Below, piece by piece: positions 4,381 through 63,900 of a stretch of 64,000 nucleotides of DNA (the stretch's first letter is position 1; each line of letters begins with the position of its first letter). Origin of the DNA: Alkalihalobacillus pseudalcaliphilus (GTDB lineage: Bacteria > Bacillota > Bacilli > Bacillales > Bacillaceae_D); the NCBI GenBank assembly GCA_001038565.1, contig LFJO01000003.1, positions 18,426 to 82,425 of the forward strand, read 5' to 3'. The notes beneath the pieces were generated by a model. That model saw only the letters and a list, made by a program, of their open reading frames with translations. It ran no database searches and was not told where the DNA came from. The position numbers and the translations under genes are program-made.

Positions 4381-4527
4381 CCATATCAAAATGGATGACA
4401 AAGCAACCCATCACAAACAAGTTTAAAAGTGTGGTTTGGCTCTTTAACTGTTGGCACATCCTTCAATTTGATATTGTTCTTTTTCGTTCTAAAGAAAAGT
4501 ATTAAAGTATTAGATTGTATTAATACT

Positions 4528-4656
4528 TGAGAATCAGCAGTAACCCAGCGGACGAGTCATGCGGAGACTCCCGCGGGAGATAGTGGAAGAGCATGATTTT
4601 CGGTAGCGATGAGTAGAGCTCCGTTCATGAGTATCAGCACTAACTTTCATATAAAA
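4528..4656. repeat. Dispersed GC-rich repeat (family A), internally deleted copy
   Basis: Starts TTGAGAATCAGCA, contains CAGCGGACGA and GGAGACTCCCGCGGGA, and ends in ACTAACTTTCATATAAAA. It aligns end to end with the copy at 39751-39926 except that the central roughly 50-base palindromic arm is missing. The stretch 4381-4527 before it carries only a fragment (TTTAACTGTTGGCAC) of another repeat family. Confidence 0.75.
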
Positions 4657-21445: not shown

Positions 21446-21613
21446 TTTGTATGAAAGTGTACTCAGGGGTGATAGTCCGTGCCTTGAAGTTAGCTGGTCA
21501 TCTATCTGGCGATTATGACCTTAACAGGGTACTGCTCCCTTTTTGTGCGTGTGGATTCCTAGAGGTGATGGAGTTGTAAACGGGCCAATTGTTTAAATAG
21601 TCGCCACTACTTT
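21446..21613 (-). repeat. Dispersed repeat family B, minus-oriented copy
   Basis: On the minus strand it reads AGTGGCGACTATTTAAAC..., CCGTTTACAACTC, ...AGCTAACTTCAAGGCAC and ends ACTTTCATACAAA. It aligns along its whole length with plus-strand copies at 44547-44717 and 54456-54620, which share CGTTTACAACTCGATCAC, CACTGTCCT.CTAAGGTCAT and GAGCTAACTTCACGGCAC. Confidence 0.75.
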
Positions 21614-22234: not shown

Positions 22235-22461
22235 AACGGTTTTGAGGATGCTCATATTATGCCGTAACCCCGCCATTTTTTGAAGTTGCCCGAAAGGGCT
22301 TGCCCAAAAAGATTCAGTGCACCGCACAAACAACCACCACCAACAAAAAGAGAGAGTAGTAATTCATCAGGATTAGTATCTAAAATCCAAGTGTTTTTGG
22401 ACAAGTAGCCAAGCTCGCTTGGCTACTTCACACCACCCATTCATTAAACTTTCATATAAAA
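22235..22461. repeat. Dispersed repeat family E (about 225 bp), copy 1
   Basis: Shares ACGGTTTTGAGGATGCTC, TGCCGTAACCCCGCCA, GCCCAAAAAGATTCAG, CACCGCACAAACA, ATCCAAGTGTTTTTGG and the end ACTTTCATATAAAA with 54149-54410. It contains a perfect hairpin GTAGCCAAG-CTCG-CTTGGCTAC at 22405-22426. A shorter relic of the same start lies at 21740-21790. Confidence 0.75.
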
Positions 22462-38542: not shown

Positions 38543-38615
38543 TAAGCGCAGCATGATTTTCGGTAGCGGCAAGTAGAACTCCGCACATAATCATTAGCAT
38601 CACTTTCATACAAAA
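38543..38615. repeat. Family A repeat relic upstream of brxB
   Basis: Carries GCATGATTTTCGGTAGCGGC, GTAGAACTCCGCACAT and the end ACTTTCATACAAAA; aligns with 4592-4656 and 46443-46510. Confidence 0.7.
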
Positions 38616-39662: not shown

Positions 39663-39750
39663 TTTTGTGTGATTTTGATTTTCTTCTTTGCTTGGTGACT
39701 CTTCATTGACTTTGTTTTTGTTGTTATTTTTTTATGAATGCAATTTGTAC

Positions 39751-39926
39751 TTGAGAATGAGCAAACACCCAGCGGACGGAAATATGCGAAGACTCCCGCG
39801 GGACGTAGTGGCGGGCTGAGATCAACTGACTGTGCCAGTTAGTTCAGCGCCACCCCGCAGGACGCGGAGCATAATTTTAAGTAGCGATGAGCAATGCTCC
39901 ATGTTCGCACTAACTTTCAAATAAAG
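39751..39926. repeat. Dispersed GC-rich palindromic repeat (family A), full-length copy
   Basis: About 176 bp, distinctly more GC-rich than its surroundings. It begins TTGAGAATGAGCA, contains GAAGACTCCCGCGGGA, a central foldback with GTGGCG (39808-39813) pairing CGCCAC (39848-39853) around CTGACTGTGCCAGTTAG, then CGCAGGACGCGGAGC, GTAGCGATGAGCAATGCTCC and the end ACTAACTTTCAAATAAAG. The motif GnAGACTCCCGCGGGA is, from memory, common in intergenic repeats of several Bacillaceae. Confidence 0.8.
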
Positions 39927-44085: not shown

Positions 44086-44147
44086 ACTTTCTTATAAAAC
44101 CCGCATAGTGGAGCCAAAACCACTCCACCACTAACAAAAATGAAAGT
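44086..44147. repeat. 62-bp hairpin element (family C), copy 1
   Basis: Terminal inverted repeats ACTTTCTTATAAAA and AAAAATGAAAGT; central stem GTGGAG (44108-44113) pairing CTCCAC (44123-44128). Confidence 0.75.
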
Positions 44148-44191
44148 CATCTTTCATCATTTTAACAATTCTTTAAGGTTTGTGAAGAGCC

Positions 44192-44533
44192 GGAGGTCAA
44201 ACCAAGTAGTATCTGCACAAAGAGGGTGTTAATGTGCAGATACGGAGGTCAAACCAAGTAGTATCTGCACAAAGAGAGTGTTAATGTGCAGATACAGAGG
44301 CCAAACCAAGTAGTATCTGCACAAAGAGGGTGTTAATGTGCAGATACGGAGGTCAAACCAAGTAGTATCTGCACAAAGAGGGTGTTAATGTGCAGATACG
44401 GAGGTCAAACCAAGTAGTATCTGCACAAAGAGGGTGTTAATGTGCAGATACGGAAGTCAAACCAAGTAGTATCTGCACAAAGAGAGTGTTAATGTGCAGA
44501 TACGGAGGTCAAACCAAGTAGTATCTGCACAAA
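44192..44533. repeat. 52-bp tandem hairpin array, 6.5 units (family D)
   Basis: Units begin GGAGGTCAAACCAAGTA at 44192, 44244, 44296, 44348, 44400, 44452 and 44504 (exact 52-base period). Each complete unit carries a perfect 11-bp inverted repeat GTATCTGCACA...TGTGCAGATAC around AAGAGGGTGTTAA, giving six identical hairpins spaced 17 bases apart. The array lacks variable spacers, so it is not CRISPR. Single diverged relatives lie at 43946-43986, 46354-46390 and 51410-51492. Confidence 0.9.
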
Positions 44534-44546
44534 ACCATTTTTCGTG

Positions 44547-44717
44547 GATAGTGGCTACTTTTTAAACAGTTGGCACGTTTACAACTCGATCACTATTAGG
44601 AGTGGGGTCGGCCTGAACAAACAGGTAGCACTGTCCTGCTAAGGTCATTTATCGCGAGATGGATGACGAGCTAACTTCACGGCACTAATTATCGCCCTAA
44701 GCAACTTTCATTTAAAA
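44547..44717 (+). repeat. Dispersed repeat family B, copy 2
   Basis: AGTGGCTACTTTTTAAAC, then GTTGGCACGTTTACAACTC, GCACTGTCCTGCTAAGGTC, GAGCTAACTTCACGGCAC, and the end ACTTTCATTTAAAA. Aligns with 54456-54620 and the reverse complement of 21446-21613. Confidence 0.8.
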
Positions 44718-45542: not shown

Positions 45543-45586
45543 ATAAGCTACATAGGTAGAGGTATGAATATCTATGTAGCTTTTTA
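45543..45586 (+). terminator. Terminator of the Usp-like gene
   Basis: AAGCTACATAGGT with ATATCTATGTAGCTT (10-12 bp), T5. Its presence upstream of ATG 45633 argues against a longer N terminus for the next gene. Confidence 0.8.
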
Positions 45587-45632
45587 TGAGCACACATTCG
45601 GAACGTACGTTCTTTTAAAAGGAGGGTTTAAA

Positions 45633-46238
45633 ATGAATTCTGATTTTTACGCAATTATAAGTCAAAGCGAAGTAATGAATCATGTATTAGCGATAAGTAA
45701 AGAACTTCATCTTCCTAATTGGTATATAAGTGCAGGTTTTATAAGATCGACCGTTTGGGACTCTTTACATGGTTATGAAGAGCGTACACCTATTGTTGAT
45801 ATTGACCTCATCTATTTTGACAGCGAATATGTAGACGAAAAGATAGAAAAGCAATTTGAACGTACCTTAAAACAGAAAGCACCCGAGTACCCTTGGTCCG
45901 TGAAAAATCAAGCACGCATGCACATGATCAATGGAGTACAGCCATATCACACGACGGAAGAAGGGATTGCTCATTTCCCTGAAACGGTTACAGCGATAGG
46001 AATAAGGATGCAGCCAAATGGTCAAATTCAAACAGCGGCACCTTATGGTTTGGATGACTTAATGAGTATGAAGGTCCGACCAACACCCCCTTTTCAAAAA
46101 GACACTAAACTACTAGAAATTTATCTAAAAAGAGTAAAGCAAAAAAATTGGCAAGAAAAATGGCCGCGTATCGAAGTAGAACACCCTTCTATTGGCAAAA
46201 TCCATATGAATAATACGCGCACCGCATACAACAAGTAA
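45633..46238 (+). CDS. Nucleotidyltransferase family protein (DUF925/COG3575 type)
   Basis: 201 aa. Family features: NWYISAGFIRSTVWDSLHGY, the metal-binding DIDLIYFD, then WSVKNQARMHMINGVQPY and the late FPETVTAIGIRM...PYGLDDLMSMKVRPTP. It is a member of the Pol-beta-like nucleotidyltransferase superfamily; substrate unknown. ATG 45633 follows AAAAGGAGGG. Its stop codon overlaps the first base of a family C hairpin element. Confidence 0.85.
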   Translation: MNSDFYAIISQSEVMNHVLAISKELHLPNWYISAGFIRSTVWDSLHGYEERTPIVDIDLIYFDSEYVDEKIEKQFERTLKQKAPEYPWSVKNQARMHMINGVQPYHTTEEGIAHFPETVTAIGIRMQPNGQIQTAAPYGLDDLMSMKVRPTPPFQKDTKLLEIYLKRVKQKNWQEKWPRIEVEHPSIGKIHMNNTRTAYNK

Positions 46239-46299
46239 CTTTCATATAAAGCGCCCATGTCGGAGCTAGAACAGCTCCGACACTAACAAAGATGAAAGT
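46238..46299. repeat. 62-bp hairpin element (family C), copy 2
   Basis: ACTTTCATATAAAG ... AACAAAGATGAAAGT ends; central stem GTCGGAGCT (46259-46267) pairing AGCTCCGAC (46273-46281), loop AGAAC. It begins on the last base of the preceding stop codon and likely serves as that gene's 3' end. Confidence 0.8.
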
Positions 46300-46327: not shown

Positions 46328-46510
46328 GGTTTGTGCAGATGCTGGAGCGGGATCATGGAGTATCTGAACAAAGAGCCGAACGTGTCAGTTACTCATGGGG
46401 ACCAAGGAGTAACGAACTTCAAAGCGTCACGCGATTGTCGCGGAGCATGATTTTCGGTAGCGGTGAGCAAAGCTCCGCACATGAGCATCAGTATCAACTT
46501 TCATATAAAA
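46328..46510. repeat. Composite of family D and family A relics
   Basis: 46328-46400 holds GGTTTGTGCAGAT and a hairpin GAGTATCTGA...TCAGTTACTC (family D type); 46436-46510 holds GCGGAGCATGATTTTCGGTAGCGG, AAGCTCCGCACATGAGCATC and the end ACTTTCATATAAAA (family A). Together with the family C unit they fill the whole gap between two genes. Confidence 0.7.
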
Positions 46511-46523
46511 GAAAGGAGAACAC

Positions 46524-46982
46524 ATGGATTACATTAAAAAGATAAGAAGTAAAGTAGGGCATGATCAAATTATTCTCAATTTTGCTGGTGGATGTGTAAA
46601 AAATGAAAAAGGTCAGATTTTGTTGCACAAGCGCAAAGATAATAAGAAATGGAGTTTCCCTGGAGGGGCCATTGAGTTAGGTGAATCAGCAGAAGAAGCA
46701 GCCTTAAGAGAAATACAAGAAGAAACAGGTTATCAAGTAAAAACCACGGATTTAATTGGGATTTATACTAAGTACACAGACAAATATGCAAATGGAGACC
46801 GAGCACAAACGATACTTTTTTTCTTTGAATGCGAAATAATTAATAATACGAATCAATATGATAAACAAGAGACGATGGAATTAGCTTTTTTTGACCTAGA
46901 CACGATTCCTGAACTCATGAACCAACAGCATCAAGATTGTTTACACGATTACATAAACGGGGTTTTCCCTGTTTGTCGTTAA
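46524..46982 (+). CDS. Nudix hydrolase, 152 aa
   Basis: Complete Nudix box GGAIELGESAEEAALREIQEETG with all Glu ligands, after HKRKDNKKWSFP. ADP-ribose/NTP pyrophosphatase-type housekeeping enzyme; substrate unknown. AAAGGAG is eight bases before the ATG and only 14 bases after a repeat end, so the repeat must form the 5' flank of this gene. Confidence 0.9.
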   Translation: MDYIKKIRSKVGHDQIILNFAGGCVKNEKGQILLHKRKDNKKWSFPGGAIELGESAEEAALREIQEETGYQVKTTDLIGIYTKYTDKYANGDRAQTILFFFECEIINNTNQYDKQETMELAFFDLDTIPELMNQQHQDCLHDYINGVFPVCR

Positions 46983-51169: not shown

Positions 51170-51560
51170 CCATTACTAAAGTCAGCTCTCTCCTGCGGGT
51201 ACGTGCTTTCATATGTACTGACGACTTCTTAACCTGTGGATACGTTTACAACTAGTCTTCTCCGAACATATAAGTAGGGTTTCACTCTTTAACTGGTGGA
51301 ACTTTATTCAATTAGTATTTGCTTTTTATTTGTTGGCTTTTCATTCATTTGTTATGAAAGTTAGCTATCGCCAATTTTACGATTAATAAAGGTTTGTGCA
51401 GATAGAGACGCGAAACCATGGAGTAACTACACAAAGAGGCAGTTAATGTGAAGATACTGAGGCCAACCATGGAGTATCTGCACGAAAAGGTGCGAAGGGA
51501 ATAAAGAACCAGCTAACTTCACGGCACAAACGATCGTCCCTAGGTAACTTTCATATAAAA
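51170..51560. repeat. Mosaic of repeat relics filling the spoIIP-acylase gap
   Basis: Pieces, in order: GTGGATACGTTTACAACTAG (family B fragment), TCTTTAACTGGTGGAACTTT and TTGTTGGCTTTTCATTCATT, GTTATGAAAGTTAG, AAAGGTTTGTGCAGATAG with two CCATGGAGTATCTGCAC-type family D half units, and 51493-51560 GAACCAGCTAACTTCACGG to the end ACTTTCATATAAAA (family B 3' end). Confidence 0.7.
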
Positions 51561-54103: not shown

Positions 54104-54410
54104 TCCACGGGGTTGCGAGCTGAAAAAAAGAGTAGAAAGCCCTAGCAATAACGGTTTTGAGGATTCTCACATTTTGCCGTAACCCCGCCACTTTTTGGAA
54201 GTTAACTCGAAGAGCGTGCCCAAAAAAATTCAGCGCACCGCACAAACAGTCACCACCAAAAAAACTCATCGGGATTAATATCCAACATCCAAGTGTTTTT
54301 GGTCCGTTAGCCAAGCTCGCTTTCGATTTTCAAAAACGGACCAAAAACAAAGGTCGAAAGGTATGTTAACTTGAGAAATGAGCACCACCCATTGAACTTT
54401 CATATAAAAC
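54104..54410. repeat. Dispersed repeat family E, copy 2, preceded by a single 51-bp-type unit
   Basis: 54104-54148 is one diverged copy of the 51-bp tandem unit (CACGGGGTTGCGAGCTGAAA); 54149-54410 aligns with 22235-22461 (ACGGTTTTGAGGAT, GCCGTAACCCCGCCA, CACCGCACAAACAG, ATCCAAGTGTTTTTGG, final ACTTTCATATAAAA). It contains a TTTTTGGTCCGTT/AACGGACCAAAAA foldback (54296-54348) absent from copy 1. Confidence 0.75.
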
Positions 54411-54456
54411 GCTCATGGAGAAGACGGTTCACTTCGCCACCAACAAAGTTGAAAGT
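54396..54456. repeat. 61-bp hairpin element (family C), copy 3
   Basis: ACTTTCATATAAAA ... ACAAAGTTGAAAGT ends; central GAAG/CTTC stem (54420-54423 with 54432-54435) extended weakly. Its first 14 bases are also the last bases of the preceding family E unit, and its last bases start the following family B unit, so neighbouring modules share ends. Confidence 0.7.
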
Positions 54457-54620
54457 AGTGGCGACTGTTCAAACTGTTGGCACGTTTACAACTCGATCAC
54501 CATCAGCAGTCGGCCTGAACAAGCAGGCAGCACTGTCCTACTAAGGTCATTGATCGCGAGATGGATGTCGAGCTAACTTCACGGCACAAACTATCACCCC
54601 TATGTAACTTTCATACAAAG
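54456..54620 (+). repeat. Dispersed repeat family B, copy 3
   Basis: AGTGGCGACTGTTCAAAC, TTGGCACGTTTACAACTCG, AGCACTGTCCTACTAAGGTC, GAGCTAACTTCACGGCAC, end ACTTTCATACAAAG. Best-preserved copy. Confidence 0.8.
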
Positions 54621-62188: not shown

Positions 62189-62217
62189 AAAAACCACGAG
62201 AAATCGTGGTTTTTTAT
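62189..62217. terminator. Terminator of the sugar ABC operon
   Basis: AAAAACCACGA/TCGTGGTTTTTT with a four-base loop; T6 on the plus strand, A6 upstream, so it can serve both directions. Confidence 0.92.
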
Positions 62218-62300
62218 TAGCTCAGCACGACCCCGCAGGACGCGAGGTATAATTTTTGGTAGCGACGAGTAGCGCTCTATGTTCCCACTAAATTTCAATT
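62218..62300. repeat. Family A repeat relic
   Basis: CTCAGCACGACCCCGCAGGACGCGAGG, TAATTTTTGGTAGCGACGAG, GCTCTATGTTCCCACTAAAT, TTCAATTAAAA; aligns with the 3' half of 39751-39926. Confidence 0.7.
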
Positions 62301-63772: not shown

Positions 63773-63900
63773 GAGTGCATACAAAACGCACAAAGCGAAG
63801 CCCCATTCACTTCGCCACGAAAAAAGATGAAAGTGTGGTTTTGCTTTTAATTGGTGGCTTTTCATTCAATTCGTATAAGTGTTGTCAAGCTGCTGGCTTT
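63773..63900. repeat. Family C element (copy 4, degraded left end) plus repeat fragment
   Basis: Contains GCGAAG (63795-63800) pairing CTTCGC (63810-63815), CACGAAAAAAGATGAAAGT end at 63834, then GTGGTTTTGCTTTTAATTGG and GGTGGCTTTTCATTCAATTC, as near 22210 and 51330. The rest of the gap to the window end shows nothing else clear. Confidence 0.6.

Follow-up and report, generated by a model that had tools for sequence, protein, structure and literature searches.

The window analysed here, a stretch of 64,000 nt from the Alkalihalobacillus pseudalcaliphilus genome, holds four copies of a hairpin (module A; 62, 62, 61 and 62 bp) along with the tails, arrays and short delimiters listed in Table 1. 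A sequence-only reading had drawn attention to these copies, and the coordinates, lengths and arms that it quoted were all found in the DNA. The ends it described as shared were similar but not constant: mismatches to the quoted 5' and 3' ends numbered 1 and 1, 1 and 0, 0 and 1, and 5 and 1 for copies 1 to 4, respectively, and none of the four carried both ends exactly. The deviating 5' end of copy 4 reads GAGTGCATACAAAA, and probably resembles a junction with host DNA more than simple decay. The arms were said to have changed while staying complementary; paired arms are present, but the stem of copy 3 is mismatched (GGAGAAG/CTTCGCC). When folded as single-stranded DNA and compared with shuffled sequences, copies 1, 2 and 4 gave z-scores of -2.63, -5.83 and -3.42, and copy 3 folded no better than its shuffles (z -1.18).

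Around the second copy, a nucleotidyltransferase gene (PF06042; ORF 45564-46238) ends with a TAA stop that overlaps the first base of A. The AGGAG following the delimiter of chain 2 was judged by eye to be ribosome-binding-site-like, with a NUDIX gene at 46524. Within the array of E units behind copy 1, a tandem-repeat call covered 44191-44533 (6.6 copies, 96% matches). The absence of a transposase from the window, as claimed from the letters, met with nothing contradicting it in 46 of the 83 ORFs listed there; NCBIfam (E <= 1e-20) was used for 40 of these and Pfam for 8, two being in both sets.

Table 1. Modules and delimiters of the repeat family along the window, in window coordinates.
Feature	Position	Strand	Score or remark
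C-D tail and delimiter, no A detected	4434..4655	+	
B tail and delimiter, no A detected	21446..21608	- (opposite strand)	
J part and delimiter	22371..22460	+	
D end and delimiter	38545..38614	+	
C-D tail and delimiter (one mismatch)	39685..39925	+	
A copy 1, stem GTGGAG/CTCCAC	44086..44147	+	77.9 bits
E array, about 7 tandem 52-bp units behind a 33-bp linker	44181..44533	+	
B tail, chain 1	44550..44698	+	150.5 bits
Right delimiter, chain 1, ACTTTCATTTAAAA	44704..44717	+	
A copy 2, stem GTCGGAGCT/AGCTCCGAC	46238..46299	+	81.2 bits
Single E unit, chain 2	46332..46375	+	25.4 bits
D tail, 3' part, chain 2	46423..46491	+	
Right delimiter, chain 2	46497..46510	+	adjoins AGGAG
C part, two E units, B end, delimiter	51279..51559	+	
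J module lacking its middle, 5' of A copy 3	54273..54362	+	
A copy 3, imperfect stem	54396..54456	+	75.2 bits
B tail, chain 3	54457..54604	+	156.2 bits
Right delimiter, chain 3, ACTTTCATACAAAG	54607..54620	+	
D part	62215..62278	+	
A copy 4, left end probably a host-DNA junction	63773..63834	+	63.4 bits

We examined if further copies were present elsewhere in the genome, as the sequence-only reading had suggested should be done. A covariance model seeded with 13 A copies gave at least 150 matches over the whole genome (4,485,366 bases, 22 contigs), a lower bound since 150 were scored in all. These matches, leaving out nine of the weakest, were taken with flanks of about 1.5 kb at both ends and combined with the window into 124 blocks (452,627 bases), within which an iterated profile detected 161 copies of A. 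The element was therefore not confined to the four copies first seen, and its numbers were far above chance. The 62 bp are the constant head of a larger unit, and the genome holds at least 161 such heads.

The unit consists of A followed by one tail (B; C+D; tandem copies of E; H; or J) and closed by ACTTTCATAYAAAA, which is a direct repeat of the first bases of A. Counted in the blocks, the 150-bp B tail occurred in 77 copies, the C+D tail of about 270 bp in 78 copies of C and 103 of D, the 52-bp hairpin E in 203 copies forming arrays of 1-23 units, and the rarer H and J in 18 and 23 copies. Heads were mostly followed by a tail on the same strand; behind 33 of the 161, no module was recognised within 60 bp. 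The modules are strongly polar, with 442 of 449 neighbouring pairs (<=60 bp apart) co-oriented; the main pairs were E-E (168), C-D (62), A-B (53), D-A and A-C (45 each), A-E (27) and B-A (12). Units are thus joined head-to-tail as polar chains: B, D, H and J tails stop just ahead of ACTTTCATAYAAAA, which within a chain opens the A that follows and at the right end of a chain stands alone, followed by host DNA. E arrays lay right behind A in 27 instances, the next module then being D, C, B or A. Array length, which reaches 23 units (arrays in the window at 44181-44533 and in two other stretches, L119 and L057), is likely to vary among strains.

The delimiter itself is abundant. The exact 13-mer ACTTTCATAYAAA was found 335 times in the genome and its reversed control 3 times; when one mismatch was allowed, the blocks held 243 delimiter sites, made up of 99 starts of A, 127 right ends of units and 17 that were neither. 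We conclude with certainty that this is a large, modular, polar and delimiter-bounded repeat family with a structured head. Nearest-neighbour identity among 51 A-B units, used as a proxy for age, had a median of 91.6% and a maximum of 96.6%; with such a median, the copies are not recent.

The arrangement of the unit bears upon the view, put forward in the sequence-only reading, that the hairpin is a miniature inverted-repeat element (MITE), in classical form moved by a cut-and-paste insertion sequence. The repeats are indeed small, dispersed, mostly intergenic and AT-rich at their ends, and an 8-mer is inverted at the start and end of A itself. But that 8-mer closes only the head; the unit is A plus its tail, and its outer ends are the direct repeat described above, so the inverted ends could not be upheld as the ends of a mobile element. 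As the left and right target sequences also failed to match significantly (see below), we hold a classical MITE to be quite unlikely.

The stems of the head were compared over the 152 of 161 A copies that were near full length. Four main inner stems recurred (GGCGAAG, GGCGGAG, GGTGGAG and GTCGGAG), each with its matching arm; a total of 86 arm combinations was seen, of which the most frequent was present in 33 copies, and a TGATGA..TCATCA stem set in the same frame gave 7 further pattern hits, some of them degenerate. Stems GGCGAAG and GGCGGAG occurred with B, C and E tails, GGTGGAG with C and E, and GTCGGAG with B, C, E and J. Since four paired versions recur, and since a second genus (described below) has other arms in both helices, the earlier claim of differing yet paired stems holds well beyond the window. 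Broken pairs were nonetheless common in single copies, so that arms varying without compensation were found for many individual copies but not for the subfamilies. We read the stems as a few paired versions, or subfamilies, exchanged among copies and tails, with decay superimposed.

Significant covariation, which had been proposed as a check, was not obtained in either of two data sets. A tree-aware test with an R-scape-like null gave best E-values of 1.3 and 3.2 (two nulls) for the copies of this genome and of 1.3 and 0.5 (two trees) for both genera; the top-ranked pair was a stem pair, though it was not significant. On a tree drawn from the unpaired columns there were 43 double switches from one paired state to another, versus 1-3 for slid partners; when every column was used for the tree these fell to 5 versus 0-4, and 171 of the 260 changes inferred at paired columns broke the pair. 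The claim that the arms reflect a selected fold, as opposed to decaying neutrally, accordingly holds only by half, given the non-significant covariation tests, the look of a few subfamilies reshuffled among tails and the large share of pair-breaking changes.

The frequent joint switches on the linker tree (43 versus 1-3), and the fact that one version is set off from another by multiple bases together (GGCGAAG against GTCGGAG; the TGATGA type), could also be produced by templated mutation, where hairpin-mediated template switching copies one arm from the other and no selection on the fold is involved. We judge this very unlikely, as a small set of versions turns up again and again behind different tails, which is what exchange between copies predicts, and as conservation at several of the linker bases flanking the stem is as strong as in the stem itself, which argues for recognition; moreover, templated mutation is no rival to mobility as such. 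Half-changes on the + strand gave 81 G-U and 102 A-C pairs (p 0.14); by helix, the inner had 34 G-U versus 54 A-C (p 0.04 towards A-C) and the outer 47 versus 48. With G-U not in excess over A-C, there is no sign of upkeep at the level of RNA. Of the two folds left open by the earlier claim, RNA or single-stranded DNA, it is DNA that is favoured by the replication-strand bias.

That bias was assessed with the leading strand assigned from GC skew. A lay on the leading strand in 127 of 161 copies, C in 65/78, D in 84/103, B in 56/77, H in 14/18 and E in 189/203. J (23 copies in the blocks) was without strand bias, at 12/23, unlike the other modules. Delimiter sites chosen without any model (the first 100 of 335) gave 40/50 on the leading strand for contig C13 and 35/45 for contig C14, so that the bias is independent of the ranking by the model. 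Among 126 chains with an ORF on both sides (ORFs called mechanically, >= 90 aa), 96 were on the leading strand. Because the flanking genes were biased too (182/252 on the leading strand), the chains were split by gene setting: 50/62 were leading where both genes were leading, 4/6 where both were lagging, 24/31 between convergent genes (p 0.003) and 18/27 between divergent genes (p 0.12). Convergent and divergent settings pooled gave 42/58 (p 0.0009), and thus the bias does not merely follow the direction of neighbouring genes. The overall chain bias (76%) is near that of the flanking genes, and may thus have been established by selection and not by insertion.

The sequence of the leading strand is that of the lagging-strand template, hence the orientation of A fits a preference for this template, which is used by IS608 and ISDra2 according to the account in PMC6006769; likewise, attC folding is described as favoured when the active strand is the lagging-strand template (PMC5371416). 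The same source gives 25 of 30 sedentary chromosomal integrons as oppositely oriented, limiting excision, and strand bias alone is therefore no proof of insertion.

A transcribed element would offer another explanation: the hairpins would function as RNA, for instance in mRNA decay, anti-termination or attenuation, and it is this role that would have preserved the repeats. Most chains do lie between ORFs (an A head fell inside an ORF of >= 90 aa in 10 of the 126), chains between co-directional genes ran with them in 52 cases and against them in 16, and some right ends are, by eye, directly 5' of a ribosome-binding site or of a terminator-like stem. Against this, the strand bias still holds in convergent and divergent gene settings, half-changes on the + strand gave G-U no advantage over A-C, and in the genomes searched the repeats were limited to a single species and a distant genus. 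Nor was a credible Rfam match obtained: at gathering scores the window gave two tRNAs only, and the weaker matches, examined for one 3.1-kb stretch and four loci, were at chance level. A role in RNA as the reason for the repeats appears distinctly unlikely to us.

The left edge was studied in 155 of the 161 copies of A, those dropped having an unrecognisable core or unread bases. For the 84 heads behind a tail, agreement with the consensus was 89-99% at ACTTT and 92-100% at ATAYAAAA; for the 71 with no recognised tail upstream, a class that still includes heads behind tails absent from the short tail list, it was 54-77% at ACTTT and 86-97% at ATAYAAAA. As agreement drops mainly at ACTTT, the ACTTT position at chain starts is often host sequence. 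(A set of 33 "strict" host-left copies was picked by mismatches to AACTTT, and its logo is uninformative on the left edge.) ATAYAAAAC is part of the unit or of a shared core. Copy 4 of the window is probably a chain start of this kind.

When the two cores of a chain, left and right, were compared with shuffled ones over 25 chains, they showed no significant correlation (p 0.083). The Y base was equal on both sides in 14 of these, with 11.8 expected, and two or three chains carried unusual letters common to both sides. A target-site duplication was thus looked for in these 25 chains and not found; by analogy with site-specific recombination, one core may come from the host site and the other from the unit. 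We also looked for empty sites in a congener, the only one matching at the DNA level. Six of 24 window proteins had a match in the four congener stretches examined (one match being paralogous), and no neighbourhood around any chain was kept; with genes 67-71% identical and chain neighbourhoods not conserved, no empty site could be shown.

Candidate enzymes for movement were sought in the source genome. A Y1 transposase or RAYT was rejected as the mover since PF01797 had 0 matches at E <= 0.001, in a search whose control was positive in 5 of 14 genomes. A TnpB of IS605 type was likewise rejected as the source: its one homologue is split into two ORFs in different frames, and neither module nor delimiter was present in the 3.2-kb stretch about it. 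Three reverse transcriptases were set aside, no module being found within the 3.6-3.7 kb examined round each. Two of these (L160 and L161, contig C14; the third, L162, is on contig C13) are retron-like, L160 being over the NCBIfam cut-off for retron Ec67 and L161 just under that for St85. Hundreds of delimiters in the genome, with no enzyme of the searched families to account for them, point to one still to be found; the mover may have been lost or be of another kind.

Tyrosine recombinases gave 8 matches, three of which were XerD, XerC and XerS by NCBIfam, while the remaining five scored under all the cut-offs listed. An XerS-type (L155) and an XerC/XerS-like (L156) recombinase lie about 11 kb apart on contig C22. 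These enzymes raise the prospect of an integron-like system, where a tyrosine recombinase would act on folded DNA cassettes, the delimiter plus head serving as the recombination site and the chains as arrays. Such a system would be in keeping with head-to-tail arrays, with unlike tails behind a constant hairpin in several paired versions, with the strand bias, and with host and element cores that look interchangeable. No integron integrase came over the cut-off, however: for TIGR02249 the best score among the 8 tyrosine-recombinase ORFs was 154 bits (this being XerD), as against a cut-off of 265. The core sites of attC are R' (GTTRRRY) and R'' (RYYYAAC); these motifs were found in 1 and 2 of the 161 heads, respectively, and both together in 0/161. 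The chains, moreover, are scattered over the genome and lack a single platform, and we regard an integron-like system as unlikely.

We next turn to other genomes. With stricter filters the covariance model found no match in 59 relatives, one of them a congener, and A-B DNA was not present in 40 other genomes of the family. Across the order (299 genomes including the source, stricter filters) there were weak matches in two genomes of a single genus belonging to another family, with 11 and 8 model matches (E 3e-5 to 9e-4) in assemblies 80% and 62% complete; a looser pattern gave 38 heads in this second genus. Its heads have the same frame, CATACAAAACNCNCATG-stem-CACCA..ATGAAA. The tails differ from those of the source genome (some appeared hairpin-like by eye), and the delimiter, TTTTCATACAAAA, differs together with the head arm. 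Pairs were compared over heads without indels in the frame (111 from the source genome and 23 from the second genus; 110 and 23 distinct). The outer pair was C-G in 82 of 110 source heads and T-A in 19 of 23 from the second genus, and the inner pair was G-C (76) or T-A (9) of 110 in the former and A-T in 13 of 23 in the latter. These differences between genera are compensatory, though few of them are independent.

The D module was rejected as a widespread Bacillales repeat, as BLAST gave 0/59 among the relatives. A profile located one D/H-related stretch in the congener G001 (L139:2281-2380), about 0.7 kb from a tRNA gene; ACATATAAAA lies upstream of it, the full delimiter is absent, and no A was found in this congener. 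The stretch is a possible source of the tail. Plasmid, phage and viral collections yielded one hit, in a stretch without the frame of the head (by eye), and a collection of genome contigs gave two hits. Titles and the starts of abstracts revealed no paper naming this repeat family, and the string tttcatacaaaac led to one unrelated paper, with a table of CodY sites.

The family may be compared with several known systems: by analogy, it would work like IS200/IS605-REP elements or attC sites and is built most like the pneumococcal BOX element, with membership in none of these shown. BOX of Streptococcus pneumoniae is described as boxA-boxB(n)-boxC (PMC3049150). The likeness, one of architecture, lies in a modular, structured, high-copy element with alternative sets of modules, the tandem E units corresponding to boxB. 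The differences are that here one head takes several tail types in head-to-tail units, that the outer ends are a direct repeat, that there is a replication-strand bias, and that the module after E varies (D, C, B or A), whereas boxC is fixed in the published description. With REP/BIME and IS200/IS605 elements, as portrayed in PMC6006769 and PMC8266576, the family has in common folded DNA, many intergenic copies and the lagging-strand template; it differs in its larger two-part units and in that no Y1/HUH transposase was found in the genome. A family-wide GTAG foot was also absent. Of the 161 heads, 75 had GTAG close to the joint with the tail, distributed as 50/53 before B, 16/45 before C, 0/27 before E and 9/36 for the others, and none was seen by eye at joints of the second genus. 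The likeness to attC, as outlined in PMC5371416, is in the weight given (in attC) to fold over sequence, in one-direction arrays of unlike cassettes and in dependence on the replication strand; the lack of an integron integrase over the cut-off, the lack of attC core motifs and the many scattered chains set the family apart. Among the bacilli, bcr1 of the Bacillus cereus group reportedly has mobile-element characteristics, as the title of its paper puts it. Bacterial stem-loop repeat families are similarly short structured repeats by their description in PMC2267715.

Taken together, the original observation was partly confirmed and its interpretation partly supported. Our main reading, to which we give a probability of about 0.5, is that A heads polar, putatively non-coding cassettes, mostly intergenic and on the leading strand, which likely spread as folded single-stranded DNA. 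Past mobility of the cassettes is likely; that folded single-stranded DNA was the substrate is plausible. The copies would have arisen through transposition or site-specific recombination, with the folded strand on the lagging-strand template as the plausible substrate, and a putative enzyme would have helped to insert them at CATAYAAAA-like sites. The 3' foot of the hairpin, ATGAAAGT, may help to recognise the delimiter by pairing with it, and chains could grow because each unit brings its own target at its right end. Pairing would be kept only in the few copies still multiplying, while settled copies decay. Weighing against this reading are the enzyme searches, which gave no candidate, the left and right cores without significant correlation, the failure to find an empty site, copies that are not recent, a chain bias close to that of the flanking genes, the unbiased J modules and the non-significant covariation tests.

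A new kind of cassette system might be envisaged in addition, where alternative pairing between foot and delimiter sets the points of cutting and joining of a folded single strand without a HUH transposase or an integron integrase. The foot (ATGAAAGT; ATGAAAA in the second genus) would pair with either the left or the right delimiter (ACTTTCAT; TTTTCAT there), and arrays of non-coding tails would build up in this way on the lagging-strand template, at CATAYAAAA sites. We offer this proposal as a speculative one and think it rather improbable.

For many small, structured intergenic repeats of bacteria, the machinery of spreading is unknown. Here, a single genome displays the unit, a polar rule of joining, an insertion core, and a strand bias that is seen away from co-directional genes. 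Together with a distant homologue whose head arm, foot and delimiter all differ in concert, this makes spread as a folded single strand directly testable.
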